Of a stretch of DNA of 34,891 nt, positions 15,936 to 34,891 are shown piece by piece. Made by a program: the position numbers and the translations under genes. Source of the DNA: Myxococcales bacterium. Its GTDB lineage: Bacteria; Myxococcota; Myxococcia; Myxococcales; Myxococcaceae. The stretch spans positions 1 to 34,891 of the forward strand of contig JADLDB010000146.1 in assembly GCA_020846875.1 (NCBI GenBank), written 5' to 3'. The notes under the pieces were generated by a model, which saw nothing but the letters and a program-made list of their open reading frames with translations, ran no database searches and was not told the DNA's origin. Each line of letters begins with the position of its first letter. Position 1 is the first letter of the stretch.

Positions 15936-17678
15936 TCAAGCCGGCTCGAGGAAGCGGCCTCGGGCGAGGTGGGCGATCAACTCCCGCGCGTCGTCGGGGG
16001 CCACGCGGGCGGTGGCCTTGAGCTGCGAGAGCGCCGCGTCGATGGTGGTGGGCCGGCGGAAGGCTTCGAGCGCCGAGAGGATCAGTGCGCCTTCCTCGCC
16101 GACCTGGAGGTGCGGGTGCCGGAGCCGGCGCGGATCCACCAGAGGCGCGCAGGTCAGCCCGTTTCCGTCCACGCTGCGCACCACCGTCGCCGGCGTCTGC
16201 TGCAGCTTCGCGGGCACCTGCCAGGCGCCCAGCCACTCGCCCAGCCGCACCGCCTTCGTCTCGGGCGCGGTGTTCCTGAGCCGCGTGCGCCCGGTGAGAG
16301 GCGCGGTGGACTTCTCGTCGCGCCGCGCGGCCGCCAGGGCCTCCAGCTCCAGCGCGGTGCGCGCCACTGCCGCCTCCAGCTTCGCGTCCGAAAAGCGCAC
16401 CATCGGTACGCGGCCGTCGCCCGGCGCCTGCCGCTCGAAGTAGTCGAGGAAGTCCTCGAAGGTGCGCGCCTCCGTCACCATGCCGAAGCGCGCCGGGTGC
16501 TCGGTGACGAGCGCGCCTGGCTGGGCCTCCAGCCGCTGGTAGCCCACCACGCAGCCCGCCTCCAGCACCCGGTCCACGTGGCGGCGCTCCTCGTCCAGGG
16601 TGGCCGGGCTGGCGAAGGGCAGGCCGGCGATGCCGGACACCTCCAGCGCGAGGTTGCCGTGCCGGCGGCACTCGTCGATGACGGTGGCCAACTGCGCGTC
16701 GGTGGGGCAGGGCTTGAGCAGCCCCTGCTTCAGTTGCTCGAGCCGCTGCGTCTGCGAGAAGCAGCCGATGTCCAGCACCAGGAAGACGCGCGCGAAGGTG
16801 CGGGCCAGCGTCTCGATGAGGCCCGGCGGGGGGACGCCCCAGAGGAACCAGGTGCAGGCGTGGCGCGAGAGGTCGACGCCCTGCCAGGTGCGCTCGATGA
16901 ACGCCGCGCTCGAGCCCTGGAAGTCGTAGCGGAGCTGCCAGGTGCGGGGCGCCACCTCGCGGTGGTCTCTCTGCACGCTTCCTTCCGCGCGCAAGAAGGC
17001 GGTAGGCCGGCCGAAGGACGCCATCTGCACGCCGCGCGTCCCGCCGCAGTACAGGCAGTTCTCGCTGCAGCCCTTGCCGGGGGCGATCCACCCGGAGAAG
17101 GAGTGCGCGTCGAGGCCGGAGAGGAAGAGTTGGTCGAAGTGCGAGTAATACGAGTCGGCGCTCTTCGGGCCCTGCACGTAGCGAAGTGGCGCACGAGTCG
17201 GGGTGCCGCCCCTGCGCGCGGTGACGACGTTGGGCGGGCCCTTCACCTGGCGGCACAGCGCCAGCAGCGGCGCCTCCCCGTCGCCCAGCACCAGGTGGTC
17301 GACGCAGCCCCAGGAAGACAGCTCCTCCCACCACCACGCCGCGGAGTTGCCGCCCAGCACCACCTGGACGTCCGGGTCGATGGCCTTGAGCGTCCTCGCG
17401 AGGAGGCGCGCCCGGGCCACGTGGTGGAACCACTTGAGGCTCACCCCCACCAGCCGCGGCTTCACGTGCGCCAGGAGGCGGGACAGGCCGTCGCGGAGCG
17501 CCGCGGGGGTGACGGCGTCGTCGAAGAGGCGCACCGAGGCCTCCACCCCGTGCCGGCGCAGGTAGCTGGCCAGGTAGAGGATGCCGCACGACGCCTCGCC
17601 GGCGCCGGCGCCCAGCAGCAGCACCGGGGCGAGGACCTCTGGAGGGCGGCGCGAGCCGCTGGGGCGAGGGCGGCTCAT
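15936..17678 (-). CDS. B12-binding-type radical SAM protein with PqqD/RRE-like C-terminus
   Basis: 580 residues from the ATG at 17678. Residues about 18-145 form a Rossmann-like cobalamin-binding-type domain (VLLLGAGAGEASCGILYLAS, LVGVSLKWFHH, VVLGGNSAAW, LGDGEAPLL). The radical SAM motif is CSENCLYC (C204, C208, C211), followed by a TIM-barrel half up to about 440. The last 66 residues (about 515-580; LQVGEEGALILSALEAF, then RPTTIDAALSQL and ARELIAHLARGRFLEP) read like a PqqD-type winged helix, the RiPP-recognition element fold. Such enzymes methylate or rearrange unactivated carbons; the tail would suit a peptide substrate. The substrate is unknown. No strong SD; an in-frame ATG at 17819 would put a hairpin palindrome inside the gene and is less likely. 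Confidence 0.85.
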   Translation of the reverse strand: MSRPRPSGSRRPPEVLAPVLLLGAGAGEASCGILYLASYLRRHGVEASVRLFDDAVTPAALRDGLSRLLAHVKPRLVGVSLKWFHHVARARLLARTLKAIDPDVQVVLGGNSAAWWWEELSSWGCVDHLVLGDGEAPLLALCRQVKGPPNVVTARRGGTPTRAPLRYVQGPKSADSYYSHFDQLFLSGLDAHSFSGWIAPGKGCSENCLYCGGTRGVQMASFGRPTAFLRAEGSVQRDHREVAPRTWQLRYDFQGSSAAFIERTWQGVDLSRHACTWFLWGVPPPGLIETLARTFARVFLVLDIGCFSQTQRLEQLKQGLLKPCPTDAQLATVIDECRRHGNLALEVSGIAGLPFASPATLDEERRHVDRVLEAGCVVGYQRLEAQPGALVTEHPARFGMVTEARTFEDFLDYFERQAPGDGRVPMVRFSDAKLEAAVARTALELEALAAARRDEKSTAPLTGRTRLRNTAPETKAVRLGEWLGAWQVPAKLQQTPATVVRSVDGNGLTCAPLVDPRRLRHPHLQVGEEGALILSALEAFRRPTTIDAALSQLKATARVAPDDARELIAHLARGRFLEPA

Positions 17679-17721: not shown

Positions 17722-17756
17722 TTGTCGAAGGAGGCATTCCGTGCCTCTTTCGACAA
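17722..17756. repeat. 35-bp near-perfect inverted repeat (hairpin)
   Basis: TTGTCGAAGGAGGCA, a five-base loop TTCCG, then TGCCTCTTTCGACAA: fifteen pairs with a single G-U in the plus-strand RNA (an A-C mismatch in minus-strand RNA). It sits in the 211-base gap between the ABC permease stop (17890) and the radical SAM start (17678), both on minus. No U-tract follows on either strand, so it is not a classical intrinsic terminator. Candidates are a Rho-independent-like end of the ABC operon, an RNA-stabilising hairpin, or a long operator. Confidence 0.85.
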
Positions 17757-27720: not shown

Positions 27721-27945
27721 ATGTGCCTGGCCATCCCCGTGCGAGTCGTGGCGCTGCTGGAGTCCGCCCGGGCGAAGGTGGACCTGGGCGGCGTGCAGAA
27801 GGACATCTCCCTGGCGCTGGTGGAGGACGTCGCGGTGGGGGACTACGTCATCCTCCACGTCGGCTATGCCTTGCAGAAGCTCGACCGGGACGAAGCGGAG
27901 AAGACGCTGGCGTTGATCGCCGCGTCGGGGGTCCAGCCCGCATGA
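27721..27945 (+). CDS. hypC: Hydrogenase maturation chaperone HypC
   Basis: 74-residue HypC/HybG protein, the chaperone that carries the Fe(CN)2CO unit between HypD and the hydrogenase large subunit. The essential N-terminal MCLAIP (Cys2) is intact, as are [15 protein letters not shown] and the [10 protein letters not shown] segment with its conserved His (H46). It lacks the acidic tail of E. coli HypC and so is on the short side. Its stop overlaps the hypD start as ATGA. The SD is weak (AGGT 13 bases upstream). The 174-base gap to the divergent lipoprotein must carry the operon promoter; I see no clear -10/-35, FNR box or sigma-54 site in it. Confidence 0.94.
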
Positions 27946-29087
27946 AGTACCTCGACGAATTTCGCGACGGGAAGGCCGCGCGCGCGCTGGCGCAGACCAT
28001 CGCTCGCGAAGTCGACCCTTCGCGCCGGTACCACGTGATGGAGTTCTGCGGCGGCCACACCCACGCCATCTCCCGCTACGGCATCGCCGACCTGTTGCCG
28101 CCCAACATCCGCCTCATCCACGGGCCGGGCTGCCCGGTGTGCGTGCTGCCCATCGGCCGCATCGACGACGCCATCGGGCTGGCGCTGGAGCAGCAGGTCA
28201 TCCTCGCCACCTACGCCGACTGCCTGCGCGTGCCGGCCTCGAAGGGCCTGTCGCTGCTCAAAGCCAAGGCGAAGGGCGCCGACGTGCGCATGGTGTACTC
28301 CAGCGCGGACGCCTTGAAGATGGCTGGAGACAACCCGGGCCGGCAGGTCGTCTTCTTCGCCATCGGCTTCGAGACCACCACCCCGCCCACCGCGGTGGCG
28401 GTGCTGGAGGCGCAGCGCCTGGGCCTCACCAACTTCACCGTCTTCTGCAACCACGTGCTGACGCCCGCGGCCATCACCCACATCCTCGAGTCGCCCGAGG
28501 TGCGGCAGCACGGCACCGTGCCGCTGGACGCCTTCATCGGCCCGGCCCACGTCTCCACCGTCATCGGCAGCCGGCCCTACGAGCACTTCGCGCACGAGTA
28601 CGCCAAGCCGGTGGTGATCGCCGGCTTCGAGCCGCTGGACGTGATGCAGGCGCTGCTCATGCTCGTCCGCCAGTTGAACGAGGGCCGCGCGGAGGTGGAA
28701 AACGAATTCACCCGCGCCGTCACCCGCGACGGAAACCTGAAGGCCCAGGCGCTGGTGGCCGAGGTCTTCGAGCTGCGCAAGTCCTTCGAGTGGCGGGGCC
28801 TGCGCGAGGTGCCCTACAGCGCGCTCAAGCTGAAGGAGAAGTACCGCGCCTTCGACGCCGAGGTGCGCTTCGAGGTGAAGACGAAGCCGGTGGCCGACCA
28901 CAAGCACTGCGAGTGCGGCGCCATCCTGCGGGGGCTCAAGCGGCCGTGGGACTGCCAGCTCTTCGGCGCCGTGTGCACGCCGGAGAACCCGATGGGCAGC
29001 TGCATGGTGTCTTCCGAAGGCGCCTGCGCCGCGCACTACACCTACGGTCGCTTCCGCGACCCCCACTCGCCCGCCCACGCCCCATGA
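27942..29087 (+). CDS. hypD: Hydrogenase maturation protein HypD
   Basis: 381-residue [4Fe-4S] scaffold protein on which, with HypC, the Fe(CN)2CO moiety of [NiFe] hydrogenases is built. Key Cys are all there: C36 in [11 protein letters not shown], and C64 and C67 in [10 protein letters not shown], matching the redox and iron-binding Cys of E. coli HypD. The C-terminal cluster Cys lie in [33 protein letters not shown] and [12 protein letters not shown]. Length is normal for the family. The start overlaps hypC and the stop overlaps hypE, both as ATGA, so translation is coupled along the operon. Confidence 0.97.
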
Positions 29088-30136
29088 AGACCGTCCGCAC
29101 CGGCTACGTCCGGCCCATCGACTTCCGCACCGGCCACGTCGACATGACGCACGGCTCGGGAGGCCGCGCCATGGCCCAGCTCATCGACGAGCTGTTCCTC
29201 GCCGCCTTCGACAACGAGTACCTGCGCGCGCAGAACGACCAGGCCTGCTTCCCGGTGCCGCCGGGCCGCCTGGTGATGGCCACCGACGCGCACGTCGTCT
29301 CGCCCCTCTTCTTCCCCGGCGGCGACATCGGCTGCCTGTCGGTGCACGGCACCATCAATGACGTGGCCATGGCCGGCGCGCGGCCGCTGCACCTCTCCGC
29401 CAGCTTCATCCTCGAGGAGGGCTTTCCGCTGGCGGACTTGAGGCGCATCGTGGAGTCGATGGCCAGGGCCTCGCGCGAGGCGGGCGTGCCCATCGTCACC
29501 GGGGACACCAAGGTGGTGGAGAAGGGCAGCGCCGACGGCGTCTTCATCACCACCACCGGCGTGGGCGTGGTGCCCGACGGCGTGGCGCTGTCCGGCGATC
29601 GCCTGCGGCCGGGCGACGCGCTGCTCCTCTCCGGCACGCTGGGCGACCACGGGGTGGCGATCATGGCCCAGCGCGAGAGCCTGGGCTTCTCCACCACCAT
29701 CGAGTCGGACACGGCGGCGCTGCACGGGCTGGTGGCGACGATGGTGGAGGTGGCGCCGAAGTCCCTGCGCGCGCTGCGCGACCCGACGCGAGGCGGCCTG
29801 GGCACCACCTTGAACGAGTGGGCGCGGCAGTCGCGGGTGGGCCTGTTGGTGGACGAGGCGGCGCTGCCGGTGCGGCCGGAGGTGGCGGCGGCCTGCGAGT
29901 TCCTCGGGCTCGACCCGCTGTACGTGGCCAACGAAGGCAAGCTGGTGTGCGCGTGCGCGCCCGACGCCGCGCCCAAGCTGCTGGAGGCGATGCGCGCTCA
30001 TCCCCTCGGCCGCGCCGCCGCCCTCATCGGGACGGTGCAGGAGGACGAGCACCACTTCGTGCAGCTGGACACCTCCTTCGGAGGCCGGCGCATCGTCGAC
30101 TGGCTGACCGGAGAGCAACTGCCGAGGATTTGCTGA
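29084..30136 (+). CDS. hypE: Hydrogenase maturation protein HypE (carbamoyl dehydratase)
   Basis: 350-residue ATP-dependent enzyme that dehydrates the carbamoyl group placed on its C-terminal Cys by HypF, making the thiocyanate that is handed to HypCD as cyanide ligand. The family ending PRIC with its terminal Cys is intact. N-terminal GHVDMTHGSGGRAM and AQNDQACF lie where PurM-type proteins bind ATP, and TDAHVVSPLFFPGGDIGCLS, VHGTINDVAMAGARP and DPTRGGLGTTLNEWA are all family hallmarks. HypF, which must act before it, is not in the window. The stop TGA overlaps the hypX ATG as TGATG. Confidence 0.97.
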   Translation: MKTVRTGYVRPIDFRTGHVDMTHGSGGRAMAQLIDELFLAAFDNEYLRAQNDQACFPVPPGRLVMATDAHVVSPLFFPGGDIGCLSVHGTINDVAMAGARPLHLSASFILEEGFPLADLRRIVESMARASREAGVPIVTGDTKVVEKGSADGVFITTTGVGVVPDGVALSGDRLRPGDALLLSGTLGDHGVAIMAQRESLGFSTTIESDTAALHGLVATMVEVAPKSLRALRDPTRGGLGTTLNEWARQSRVGLLVDEAALPVRPEVAAACEFLGLDPLYVANEGKLVCACAPDAAPKLLEAMRAHPLGRAAALIGTVQEDEHHFVQLDTSFGGRRIVDWLTGEQLPRIC

Positions 30137-31848
30137 TGCGCGTCCTGCTCCTCGCTCATGCGTTCAACAGCCTCACCCAGCGGCTGTGGGTGGCGCTGAC
30201 GGCGCGTGGGCACGAGGTGTCGCTGGAGCTGGACATCGCCGACGCCGTCTCGCTGGAGGCGGTGCAGCTCTTCCGCCCCGACGTGGTGGTGGCGTCATTC
30301 CTCAAGCGCGCCCTCCCCGAGGCGCTGTGGGCCTGCGTGCCCTGCCTGGTGGTGCACCCCGGGCCGCCGGGCGATCGCGGGCCCTCCTCCCTGGACTGGG
30401 CGATCCTCGACGGGAAGCAGGAGTGGGGCGTCACCGTGCTGCAGGCCAACGCGGTGATGGACGGCGGGCCGGTGTGGGCTTTTCGCTCCTTCCCGATGCG
30501 CGCGGCGCGGAAGAGCAGCCTGTACCGCAACGAGGTGACGGAGGCGGCCACCGGGGCGGTGCTGGAGGCGCTGGAGAAGCTCGCGGCGGGCGCGAGGCCG
30601 GAAGCGCAGCGCGAGGCCACCGCGCGGCCCCGGCCGCTGATGAAGCAGGAGCACCGGCGCATCGACTGGACGAAGGACGACACCGAGACGGTGCTGCGTA
30701 AGGTGCGCGCGTCGGACTCGGTGCCCGGCGTGCTGGACTCGCTCGGCGGGCAGGAGGTGTACCTCTACAACGCCTTCCTCGATGCCACGCGGCGGGGCGC
30801 GCCGGGCACCTTGCTGGGCCGGAAGAGCGGCGCCGTGCTGCGGGCCACCGTCGATGGCGCGGTGTGGCTGACGCACTTGAAGCGTGCGGCGCGTACGGGA
30901 GAGTCGGAGGCGGAGGCGCCCTTCAAGCTGCCGGCGGTGGAGGTGCTGGGTGAAGCGGGCCGGGCGCTGCCGGAGTTGGCGGAGGGCTGGGCGCCGATTG
31001 GCTACCAGCGCGCGGGAGACGTGGGGCTGCTCTCCTTCGACTTCTACAACGGGGCGATGTCCACCTCGGACTGCCTGGCGCTGCGCGACGCCTTCCTCGA
31101 AGCGGCGCGGCGACCCACCAAGGTGCTGGTGCTGCTGGGCGGGCCGGACTTCTGGTCCAACGGCATTCACCTCAACACCATCGAAGTCGCCTCCAGCCCG
31201 GCCGACGAGTCGCTGCGCAACATCGAGGCGATGGACGAGCTCTGCCGGGCGATCATCGAGTGCACCTCGCAGCTCACCGTGGCGGCGCTGCAGGGCAACG
31301 CGGGCGCGGGCGGCTGCTTCCTCGCGCTGGCGGCCGACGTGGTGCTGGCGCGCGACGGCGTGGTGCAGAACCCGCACTACAAGAACATGGGGAACCTGTA
31401 CGGCTCGGAGTACTGGACGTACCTGCTCCCGCGGCGGGTGGGCGCGAAGCAGGCCGAGGCCATCACCCAGAACCGGATGCCGCTGGGTGCACAGGAGGCG
31501 AAGCGCGCGGGCCTGGTGGACGAGTGCTTCCCCGGGTCGCCGGGAGAGTTCGTCTCGCGGGTGAAGGCGCGCGCGCAAGGACTGGCCAGCGCCGCCGACT
31601 TCGAGCGCCGGCTTTCCGACAAGCGCGCCCGCCGGGCCACCGACGAGGCGACGCGTCCCCTGTCGAAGTACCGCGAGGAGGAGCTGGCGAAGATGCGGCT
31701 CAACTTCTACGGCTTCGACCCCAGCTACCACGTGGCGCGCTTCCACTTCGTGCACCGCCTGCCGCACGCGTGGACACCGCTGCACCTGGCGCGGCACCGG
31801 GCGCAGGCCTGGAAGAAGCAGGCCGCGCTGACGACGCGCGTCACCTGA
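30136..31848 (+). CDS. hypX: HypX/HoxX: CO-ligand synthase for [NiFe]-hydrogenase
   Basis: 570-residue fusion of a formyltransferase-type domain (about 1-230) and an enoyl-CoA hydratase-type domain (about 290-510). Known HypX proteins turn the formyl group of formyl-tetrahydrofolate into CO for the hydrogenase iron when oxygen is present, by way of formyl-CoA. The first domain keeps HPGPPGDRGPSSLDWA (H74) and GVTVLQANAVMDGGPVW (D109), matching the catalytic His and Asp of Met-tRNA formyltransferase. The second has FWSNGIHLN and ALQGNAGAGGCFLALAADVV, with the crotonase oxyanion-hole glycines, then VQNPHYKNMGNLYGSEYWTY, typical for HypX. Its start overlaps the hypE stop. Its last eight bases overlap the end of the convergent lipoprotein gene. 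Confidence 0.95.
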   Translation: MRVLLLAHAFNSLTQRLWVALTARGHEVSLELDIADAVSLEAVQLFRPDVVVASFLKRALPEALWACVPCLVVHPGPPGDRGPSSLDWAILDGKQEWGVTVLQANAVMDGGPVWAFRSFPMRAARKSSLYRNEVTEAATGAVLEALEKLAAGARPEAQREATARPRPLMKQEHRRIDWTKDDTETVLRKVRASDSVPGVLDSLGGQEVYLYNAFLDATRRGAPGTLLGRKSGAVLRATVDGAVWLTHLKRAARTGESEAEAPFKLPAVEVLGEAGRALPELAEGWAPIGYQRAGDVGLLSFDFYNGAMSTSDCLALRDAFLEAARRPTKVLVLLGGPDFWSNGIHLNTIEVASSPADESLRNIEAMDELCRAIIECTSQLTVAALQGNAGAGGCFLALAADVVLARDGVVQNPHYKNMGNLYGSEYWTYLLPRRVGAKQAEAITQNRMPLGAQEAKRAGLVDECFPGSPGEFVSRVKARAQGLASAADFERRLSDKRARRATDEATRPLSKYREEELAKMRLNFYGFDPSYHVARFHFVHRLPHAWTPLHLARHRAQAWKKQAALTTRVT

Positions 31849-33440: not shown

Positions 33441-33465
33441 TGGTGGATGGGGGTGCCGTTTCCGC

Positions 33466-34891
33466 TTACGCGGCGCGGTCTCCCCCACCTCCTTTCAAAC
33501 CGTGCGTGCGGGTTTCCCGCACACGGCTTACGGGTGGGACTTCACGATGCAGCATGCACGGCTTCGGGTACCGCACGGTGCCGCGTAGTCGGTACAGGCC
33601 CCGAGCTTCGTAGTCCTCGCGCGTCCAGCGGATGCGATGACCCGGCTTCGCGTGTCGTCGATGGCGTCGCCACCGAAACATGTTCAGCCGCCGCACGACG
33701 TACTTGTCGAGCGAGAGAAACTTCCGGGCTGCATTTCCGGTCGAGAAGTGTCGGCCCCAGCCTTCGAGCACCGGGTTCAGGTCGCGGATGAGCACGTCCA
33801 CGTCCTTCACGCCGTCGCGTCGTGAGTCGGTCAGCTCCTTCACCTTCGACCGCACCTTCTTCATGTTTCGCGTCGAGGGCCACCGCTGGAGGTAGTAGCG
33901 ACGAATCCGCTTCTCCTCCCACAGCTCCCCCGACATTCGCATGTGCAGGTGACAGCCGAGGAAGTCGAAGCCTTCCTTCCCCTCGGTCAGGTCTACTCTT
34001 CTCGTCTTCTCGGGATGCAGCGACAGCTTCAGCCGCTCGAAGATGATGCGCACTCTTCGTTCAGCTTCTTCCACGGCTTCGCGGCTTCTGCAGAGCACCA
34101 CGAAGTCGTCCGCGTACCGCACCAGCGTGCCGACTTCGGCGCACTGGCGCTGCCACACGGTGTCGAGGAAGTGCAGGTAGATGTTCGACAGCAGCGGGGA
34201 AATGACGCCTCCCTGCGGCGTACCTGAGACCGTCTCTGAGTACGTGCCCTCGTCCACCACGCCTGCCTGAAGCCAACCACGCAGCAGTTTGAGGACTCGT
34301 CTGTCTGAGACACGCCTCGACACGCGCTCCATCAACACCATCTGGTCGATGGTGCCGAAGTAGTCGCGGATGTCGGCGTCCAGCACGTGGCGACTTCCCG
34401 CGTTCACCTTCTCGCGAATCGTCTCCAGTGCCTGCAACGTGCTTCTGCGCGGCCGGAAGCCGAAGGACGAGGGCAGAAAGTCCGCCTCGAAAATCGGCTC
34501 CAACACCAACTTCGCCGCCATCTGCACGACGCGATCTCTCACCGTCGGAATCCCCAGCGGCCGCTGCTTGCCATCGGCCTTCGGGATGTACCGCCTCAGC
34601 ACGGGAGGTGCTCGGTACGTTCCTGCGAGGAGCTTGTCTCGAAGCTCATTCAGCAGCTTCTCGACTCCGTACTGCTCCACTGCCTCGAGCGTGACTCCAT
34701 CCACGCCTCCGGCTCCCTTCTTGCGCTTCACCCGCTCCCACGCCTCGTGCAGGACGTCACTCCGGCACAATCGGTCGTACAGCGCGTGGAATCGGCGTTC
34801 CTTCTGCTGCTTGGCTGCAACGTAGAGCTTCCGCTGGAGTCGTCGGACTTTCTCGTCAGGCTCGTGCCTGCCGGGGTTGTTGGACGCGCTC
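33466..34891 (-). CDS. ltrA: Group II intron reverse transcriptase/maturase, 5' end outside window
   Basis: Intron-encoded protein that helps splicing and copies the intron into new sites. The frame stays open to the window edge; the first residues seen include RRLQRKLYVAAKQQKERRFH, so the true start is beyond 34891 and the TTG at 34770 is internal. RT blocks: GAGGVDG, PLGIPTVRDRVVQMA, SSFGFRPRRS, SGTPQGGVISPLLSNIYLH, the YADD catalytic motif in VRYADDFVVLC, and FDFLGC. The maturase (domain X) part is LNPVLEGWGRHFSTGNA. There is no HNH endonuclease domain, so it would use replication forks or other nicks as primers. The last 30 codons (PPVSRVRETRTHGLKGGGG) run through intron domain V, a feature of compact bacterial introns. 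Appears intact as far as seen. Confidence 0.93.
   Translation of the reverse strand, partial: SASNNPGRHEPDEKVRRLQRKLYVAAKQQKERRFHALYDRLCRSDVLHEAWERVKRKKGAGGVDGVTLEAVEQYGVEKLLNELRDKLLAGTYRAPPVLRRYIPKADGKQRPLGIPTVRDRVVQMAAKLVLEPIFEADFLPSSFGFRPRRSTLQALETIREKVNAGSRHVLDADIRDYFGTIDQMVLMERVSRRVSDRRVLKLLRGWLQAGVVDEGTYSETVSGTPQGGVISPLLSNIYLHFLDTVWQRQCAEVGTLVRYADDFVVLCRSREAVEEAERRVRIIFERLKLSLHPEKTRRVDLTEGKEGFDFLGCHLHMRMSGELWEEKRIRRYYLQRWPSTRNMKKVRSKVKELTDSRRDGVKDVDVLIRDLNPVLEGWGRHFSTGNAARKFLSLDKYVVRRLNMFRWRRHRRHAKPGHRIRWTREDYEARGLYRLRGTVRYPKPCMLHREVPPVSRVRETRTHGLKGGGGDRAA
33496..33529 (-). ncRNA. Group II intron domain V
   Basis: 34-nucleotide catalytic hairpin read on minus. The lower stem AGCCGUG pairs with CACGGUU, including the AGC catalytic triad and its G-U pair. 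A two-base bulge (CG) follows, then the upper stem UGCGG(G)/(C)CCGCA with a GAAA-type loop. It matches the D5 consensus in length, bulge position and triad, so the intron's catalytic core looks functional. It overlaps the last codons of the reverse transcriptase. Confidence 0.9.

Follow-up and report, generated by a model that had tools for sequence, protein, structure and literature searches.

RREs are an accepted marker of RiPP gene clusters, and enzymes that combine an RRE with B12-dependent radical chemistry have been described. ApyD (NF050148), described in 2023-24, is an RRE-containing B12-radical-SAM Tyr C-beta methylase of the apy RiPP cluster, and it resembles the 580-aa protein reported here in carrying B12-binding, radical-SAM and RRE domains in one chain (PMC10635010). 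Its own gene cluster includes the precursor peptide and other enzymes, whereas the gene for the 580-aa enzyme was found without a linked partner. The ApyD profile gave weak matches in 12 of the 34 orthologs (best E 1.8e-4). A solitary RiPP-type enzyme also has a precedent in E. coli YcaO, whose target is the ribosomal housekeeping protein uL16, but YcaO has no RRE. What is new at this locus is thus the orphan, family-wide form of the enzyme. The original prediction of a peptide or protein methylase/epimerase of a new kind is retained as regards a B12 radical-SAM enzyme with a predicted RRE-fold tail, while its newness is weakened by ApyD.

Catalytic domains and their relatives

The window (the whole stretch of 34,891 nucleotides analysed) carried the gene at the boundaries originally predicted, the stop codon being included, and on the minus strand (Table 1). 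The B12-binding domain scored 45.6 bits with PF02310, above the cut-off of 32.1. The cluster motif reads GCSENCLYC, and its three cysteines, as well as many core residues, were invariant in the 34 aligned orthologs. The radical-SAM Pfam model gave no match in the 580-aa protein and matched weakly in 10 of the 34 orthologs. The protein thus displayed the B12-binding domain and the radical-SAM barrel with CX3CX2C by which cobalamin radical-SAM enzymes are recognised. An AlphaFold2 model of the whole protein, for which eight sequences were used, had a mean pLDDT of 72.6 and was weak near the cluster loop. It superposed on the solved cobalamin radical-SAM enzymes CysS (Z 16.4), MgmA (15.9), TsrM (15.9), and OxsB (15.7); the overall fold is alike, but these enzymes are only 10-18% identical to the 580-aa protein and their substrates differ. 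CysS, MgmA, and TsrM are methylases and OxsB is not, and the target of MgmA is a protein residue. Taken together, PF02310, the invariant motif and the modelled fold support the B12-type radical-SAM enzyme of the original prediction; the fold matches leave its reaction unfixed, and methylation is suggested because it is the commonest reaction of the cobalamin radical-SAM group.

Table 1. Positions of the enzyme gene, its domains and other features in the window
Feature	Position	Strand	Basis
B12-binding/radical-SAM protein	15936..17678	-	580 aa plus stop; translation; orthologs 51-64% identical
B12-binding domain, residues 31-141	17256..17588	-	PF02310 E 7e-12; fold matches to B12 domains
Radical-SAM barrel, about residues 196-430	16389..17093	-	TIGR04190 match 31-411; CysS, TsrM, MgmA, OxsB fold matches
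CX3CX2C cluster motif C204-C208-C211	17046..17069	-	invariant, 34 orthologs
C-terminal RRE-like domain, residues 496-580 (b-b-b-a-a-a-b)	15939..16193	-	predicted models; PDB matches mostly RREs
35-nt palindrome (hairpin), between upstream ABC-transporter operon and B12/radical-SAM gene	17722..17756	-	
Hydrogenase-maturation hypC, hypD, hypE, then fusion gene	27721..31848	+	by reading
Group II intron	33442..33531	-	Rfam RF00029, 42 bits
Reverse transcriptase/maturase ORF	33466..34890	-	RVT_1, GIIM

The 580-aa protein scored above the cut-off of no curated family; TIGR04190 was the nearest, followed by HpnR, TIGR03975, and PhpK, all far below their cut-offs. Over the catalytic part no profile came closer than TIGR04190 (B12_SAM_Ta0216; E 5e-19 to 8e-24), but the protein reached only 68.4 bits vs. 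a family cut-off of 500, which places it outside that family, and the TIGR04190-like proteins compared by pairwise alignment had no counterpart of the C-terminal tail. TIGR03975, the RiPP maturation radical SAM C-methyltransferases, is likewise of the B12 radical-SAM type; it matched residues 67-146 only, with 25.1 bits vs. a cut-off of 281.85, and differs further in that no precursor gene lies near the gene of the 580-aa enzyme. Among the proteins related to it in catalytic-domain sequence are enzymes that act on small molecules and lipids, such as the hopanoid methylase HpnR.

Predicted fold of the C-terminal tail

The tail was present and conserved in full-length orthologs. When residues 458-580 were folded alone, the best of five models reached a pLDDT of 88.7 and a pTM of 0.81 and was the only confident one (pLDDT 53-72 for the others). 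In this predicted model, strands 496-501, 508-511, and 524-526 are followed by helices 527-539, 546-555, and 561-573, and the same elements appeared in the full-length model. A strict bbb-aaa order of the winged helix defines the RRE (PMC12710340), and the modelled tail follows that order. The 66 residues highlighted in the original prediction (515-580) take in strand 3 and all three helices; the complete module starts at about residue 496.

The top solved matches of the tail model by VIA-align were peptide-modifying enzymes that contain RREs, namely MccB (Z 9.0 over 80 residues, 2.7 A), MibB (8.6), TigE (8.3), TbtB (7.3), and ThcOx (7.0), and the next were McbB, BmdC, TbiB1, PbtF, and TruD (Z 5.4-6.2). 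The matched regions of MibB, TbtB, ThcOx, TigE, and BmdC are presumably their RRE or RRE-like domains. Classical DNA-binding repressors reached Z ≤ 4.7 in the same search, and a few non-RRE folds were interspersed among the matches (3dee, 6.8; Pol III winged helix, 5.8; PKMT, 5.8). The tail model therefore matched solved RREs above other winged helices. The E-values obtained with Foldseek were weak (best 0.018).

A profile comparison between the tail and 20 sequences of the PqqD family was not significant (hhalign E 0.05-0.11, probability about 1%), the profile search from the tail reached no PDB sequence, and Pfam returned insignificant winged-helix matches only; by profile, no sequence-level link to PqqD or to any PDB chain was thus obtained. 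Profile similarity fails to detect many true RREs (PMC7470986). The likeness of the tail to RRE domains (MccB, MibB, TigE, TbiB1, PqqD) lies in the bbb-aaa fold order and the top PDB matches, with no significant sequence relationship found, and since sequence profiles give no link to PqqD the RRE assignment rests on the predicted model. The PqqD/RRE-like winged helix originally read in the tail was accordingly reproduced as a predicted fold closest to RREs, but not as a sequence relationship to PqqD. Conservation within the tail was highest in the first hairpin (TVxRSxxG...CAP), roughly at the level of the catalytic core. Variation greater than in the core was seen in strand 3 and the helices, and RREs bind their peptides next to strand 3 and helix 3; peptide binding in the usual groove is therefore putative.

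Distribution, history and neighbourhood of the gene

The gene occurred in single copy in 84 of the 96 genomes of the family Myxococcaceae and was almost absent outside it: among 195 phylum genomes there was one other full-length homolog (G155, same order, 53%) and one relative of the catalytic part (G101, 32%, residues 23-412). It was also found in Archangium and other Myxococcaceae metagenome bins, and one genome (G091) presented an in-frame stop near residue 231. The location of the ortholog differed between most genomes. In same-genus pairs from 20 genomes, the shared stretch around deoA had a median length of 16 kb, vs. 1.7 kb, that is, the gene itself, around the B12/radical-SAM gene. Ortholog loci of genera g3, g7, g8, and g9 (L041, L047) displayed gene-sized scrambling: genes that are neighbours in one species were each found alone at other sites in related species, with the deoA region remaining syntenic. 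Mobility peculiar to the B12/radical-SAM gene, which the loss of synteny relative to deoA had suggested, was discarded: the neighbours in the two loci examined were scattered singly likewise, so that the surrounding region appears rearranged as a whole. A dispersed repeat of 75-85 bp, with many copies in several g3 and g7 genomes, lies around 11600-11710 of L047. Transfer of the gene within the family, with the copy number staying at one, is likely, because GTDB genera are broken up in the gene tree on well-supported branches (at least four changes for g19, three for g6) and because one genome (G079), which the deoA tree places with its own genus, grouped with other genera in the gene tree.

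No gene family was recurrent beside the gene in 41 ortholog-bearing loci, the commonest neighbour cluster, a common oxidoreductase type, occurring in eight of them. A six-frame search of all ORFs ≥ 25 residues, up to about 9 kb from the gene at 35 loci, revealed no recurrent small peptide, and the precursor peptide gene near the enzyme that characterises a RiPP cluster was thus lacking in these loci. No NRPS/PKS or carrier gene was recurrent near orthologs. Sequence conservation ended at the stop codon and, upstream, covered only ~70 bases in related species, in which a promoter-like TATACT stretch ahead of the start was recognised by eye. Both places where the original prediction had advised looking for a partner proved unproductive: tblastn around 47 ortholog loci revealed no homolog of the DnrO-like protein (best E 0.70), and the segment 17679-17889 contained no conserved ORF but a dispersed 35-nt palindrome. 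This palindrome is not a precursor gene, since the genome contains related copies elsewhere, at four places distributed over contigs C104, C101 (opposite strands of one place), C4, and C140. An outcome that the original prediction had itself named as refuting, orthologs lacking any conserved small peptide or protein partner, was thus observed within about 9 kb of the gene. The RiPP-pathway reading falls in its cluster form, which leaves room for a substrate in trans.

An operon with the ABC-transporter genes was rejected in view of the 211-bp gap containing the hairpin and of the lack of a conserved neighbour at other loci. No Rfam match for a cobalamin riboswitch was found upstream of the gene, and PADLOC gave no match to a defence-system family. 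A weak paralog (L002) is encoded about 850 bases away from the palindrome copy on contig C104.

Candidate substrates and other features of the window

The domain make-up indicates a polypeptide substrate held by the tail and, as no gene is linked, the substrate, if any, would be supplied in trans. With confidence just short of even, we favour a stand-alone cobalamin radical-SAM enzyme, likeliest a C-methylase, whose predicted RRE tail would hold a ribosomally made polypeptide provided in trans. The polypeptide held by this C-terminal domain would be modified in the B12/[4Fe-4S]-SAM active site, most likely by C-methylation and alternatively by other B12 radical chemistry; the substrate could be an ordinary cellular protein or the product of a precursor gene located at another site in the genome. 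A stronger version, which we regard as unlikely, is a family-wide precursor-less system in which the RRE-guided enzyme would alter a housekeeping protein, a C-methylated or radically altered residue then being normal in Myxococcaceae cells. A solitary single-copy RRE enzyme in most genomes of a family would imply one of two things: RiPP precursors may be encoded at a distance from the enzyme, or RREs serve also in the modification of ordinary proteins.

Since the nearest catalytic relatives include HpnR, the main rival is a C-methylase of small molecules or lipids of the HpnR/TIGR04190 type, its RRE-like tail being a structural or regulatory add-on that binds no peptide. The best sequence matches of the catalytic part (TIGR04190 and the hopanoid methylase), a solitary, single-copy and family-wide gene as expected for a lipid or cofactor enzyme, and a putative peptide groove conserved less than the core are all consistent with this explanation. 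It appears somewhat unlikely, though, as the absence of a tail counterpart from the TIGR04190-like proteins compared argues for a reason behind the gain or retention of the tail, and the best tail folds are domains of peptide-modifying enzymes.

It is distinctly improbable that the enzyme acts on a carrier-tethered (PCP/ACP) substrate and uses its tail to dock to the carrier or to the corresponding synthetase: such genes were not recurrent near orthologs, and near-universal presence in the family speaks against a single natural-product pathway, even though CysS was the top whole-fold match and BmdC was among the tail matches. Counted in favour of a carrier were the pantetheinyl substrates of CysS and TokK, the position of the BmdC RRE-like domain on an NRPS, and the abundance of carrier-protein (NRPS/PKS-type) pathways in myxobacteria. 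Finally, the tail might be an ordinary winged helix for nucleic-acid binding or dimerisation, its resemblance to RREs reflecting a shared fold. RREs and DNA-binding winged helices do have a common fold and are often confused (PMC7470986, PMC12710340), and the Pfam matches of the tail, insignificant as they are, were to winged helices; RREs nevertheless occupied most top ranks in the search where classical repressors stayed at or below 4.7, and the chain of the tail begins with the beta strands, as does that of RREs, which makes this explanation very improbable. The favoured reading remains that of a polypeptide-modifying enzyme with its substrate in trans.

Elsewhere in the window, the hydrogenase-maturation genes are followed by a formyltransferase/enoyl-CoA-hydratase fusion resembling HoxX, and the group II intron is accompanied by the reverse transcriptase/maturase ORF, which runs past the window end.
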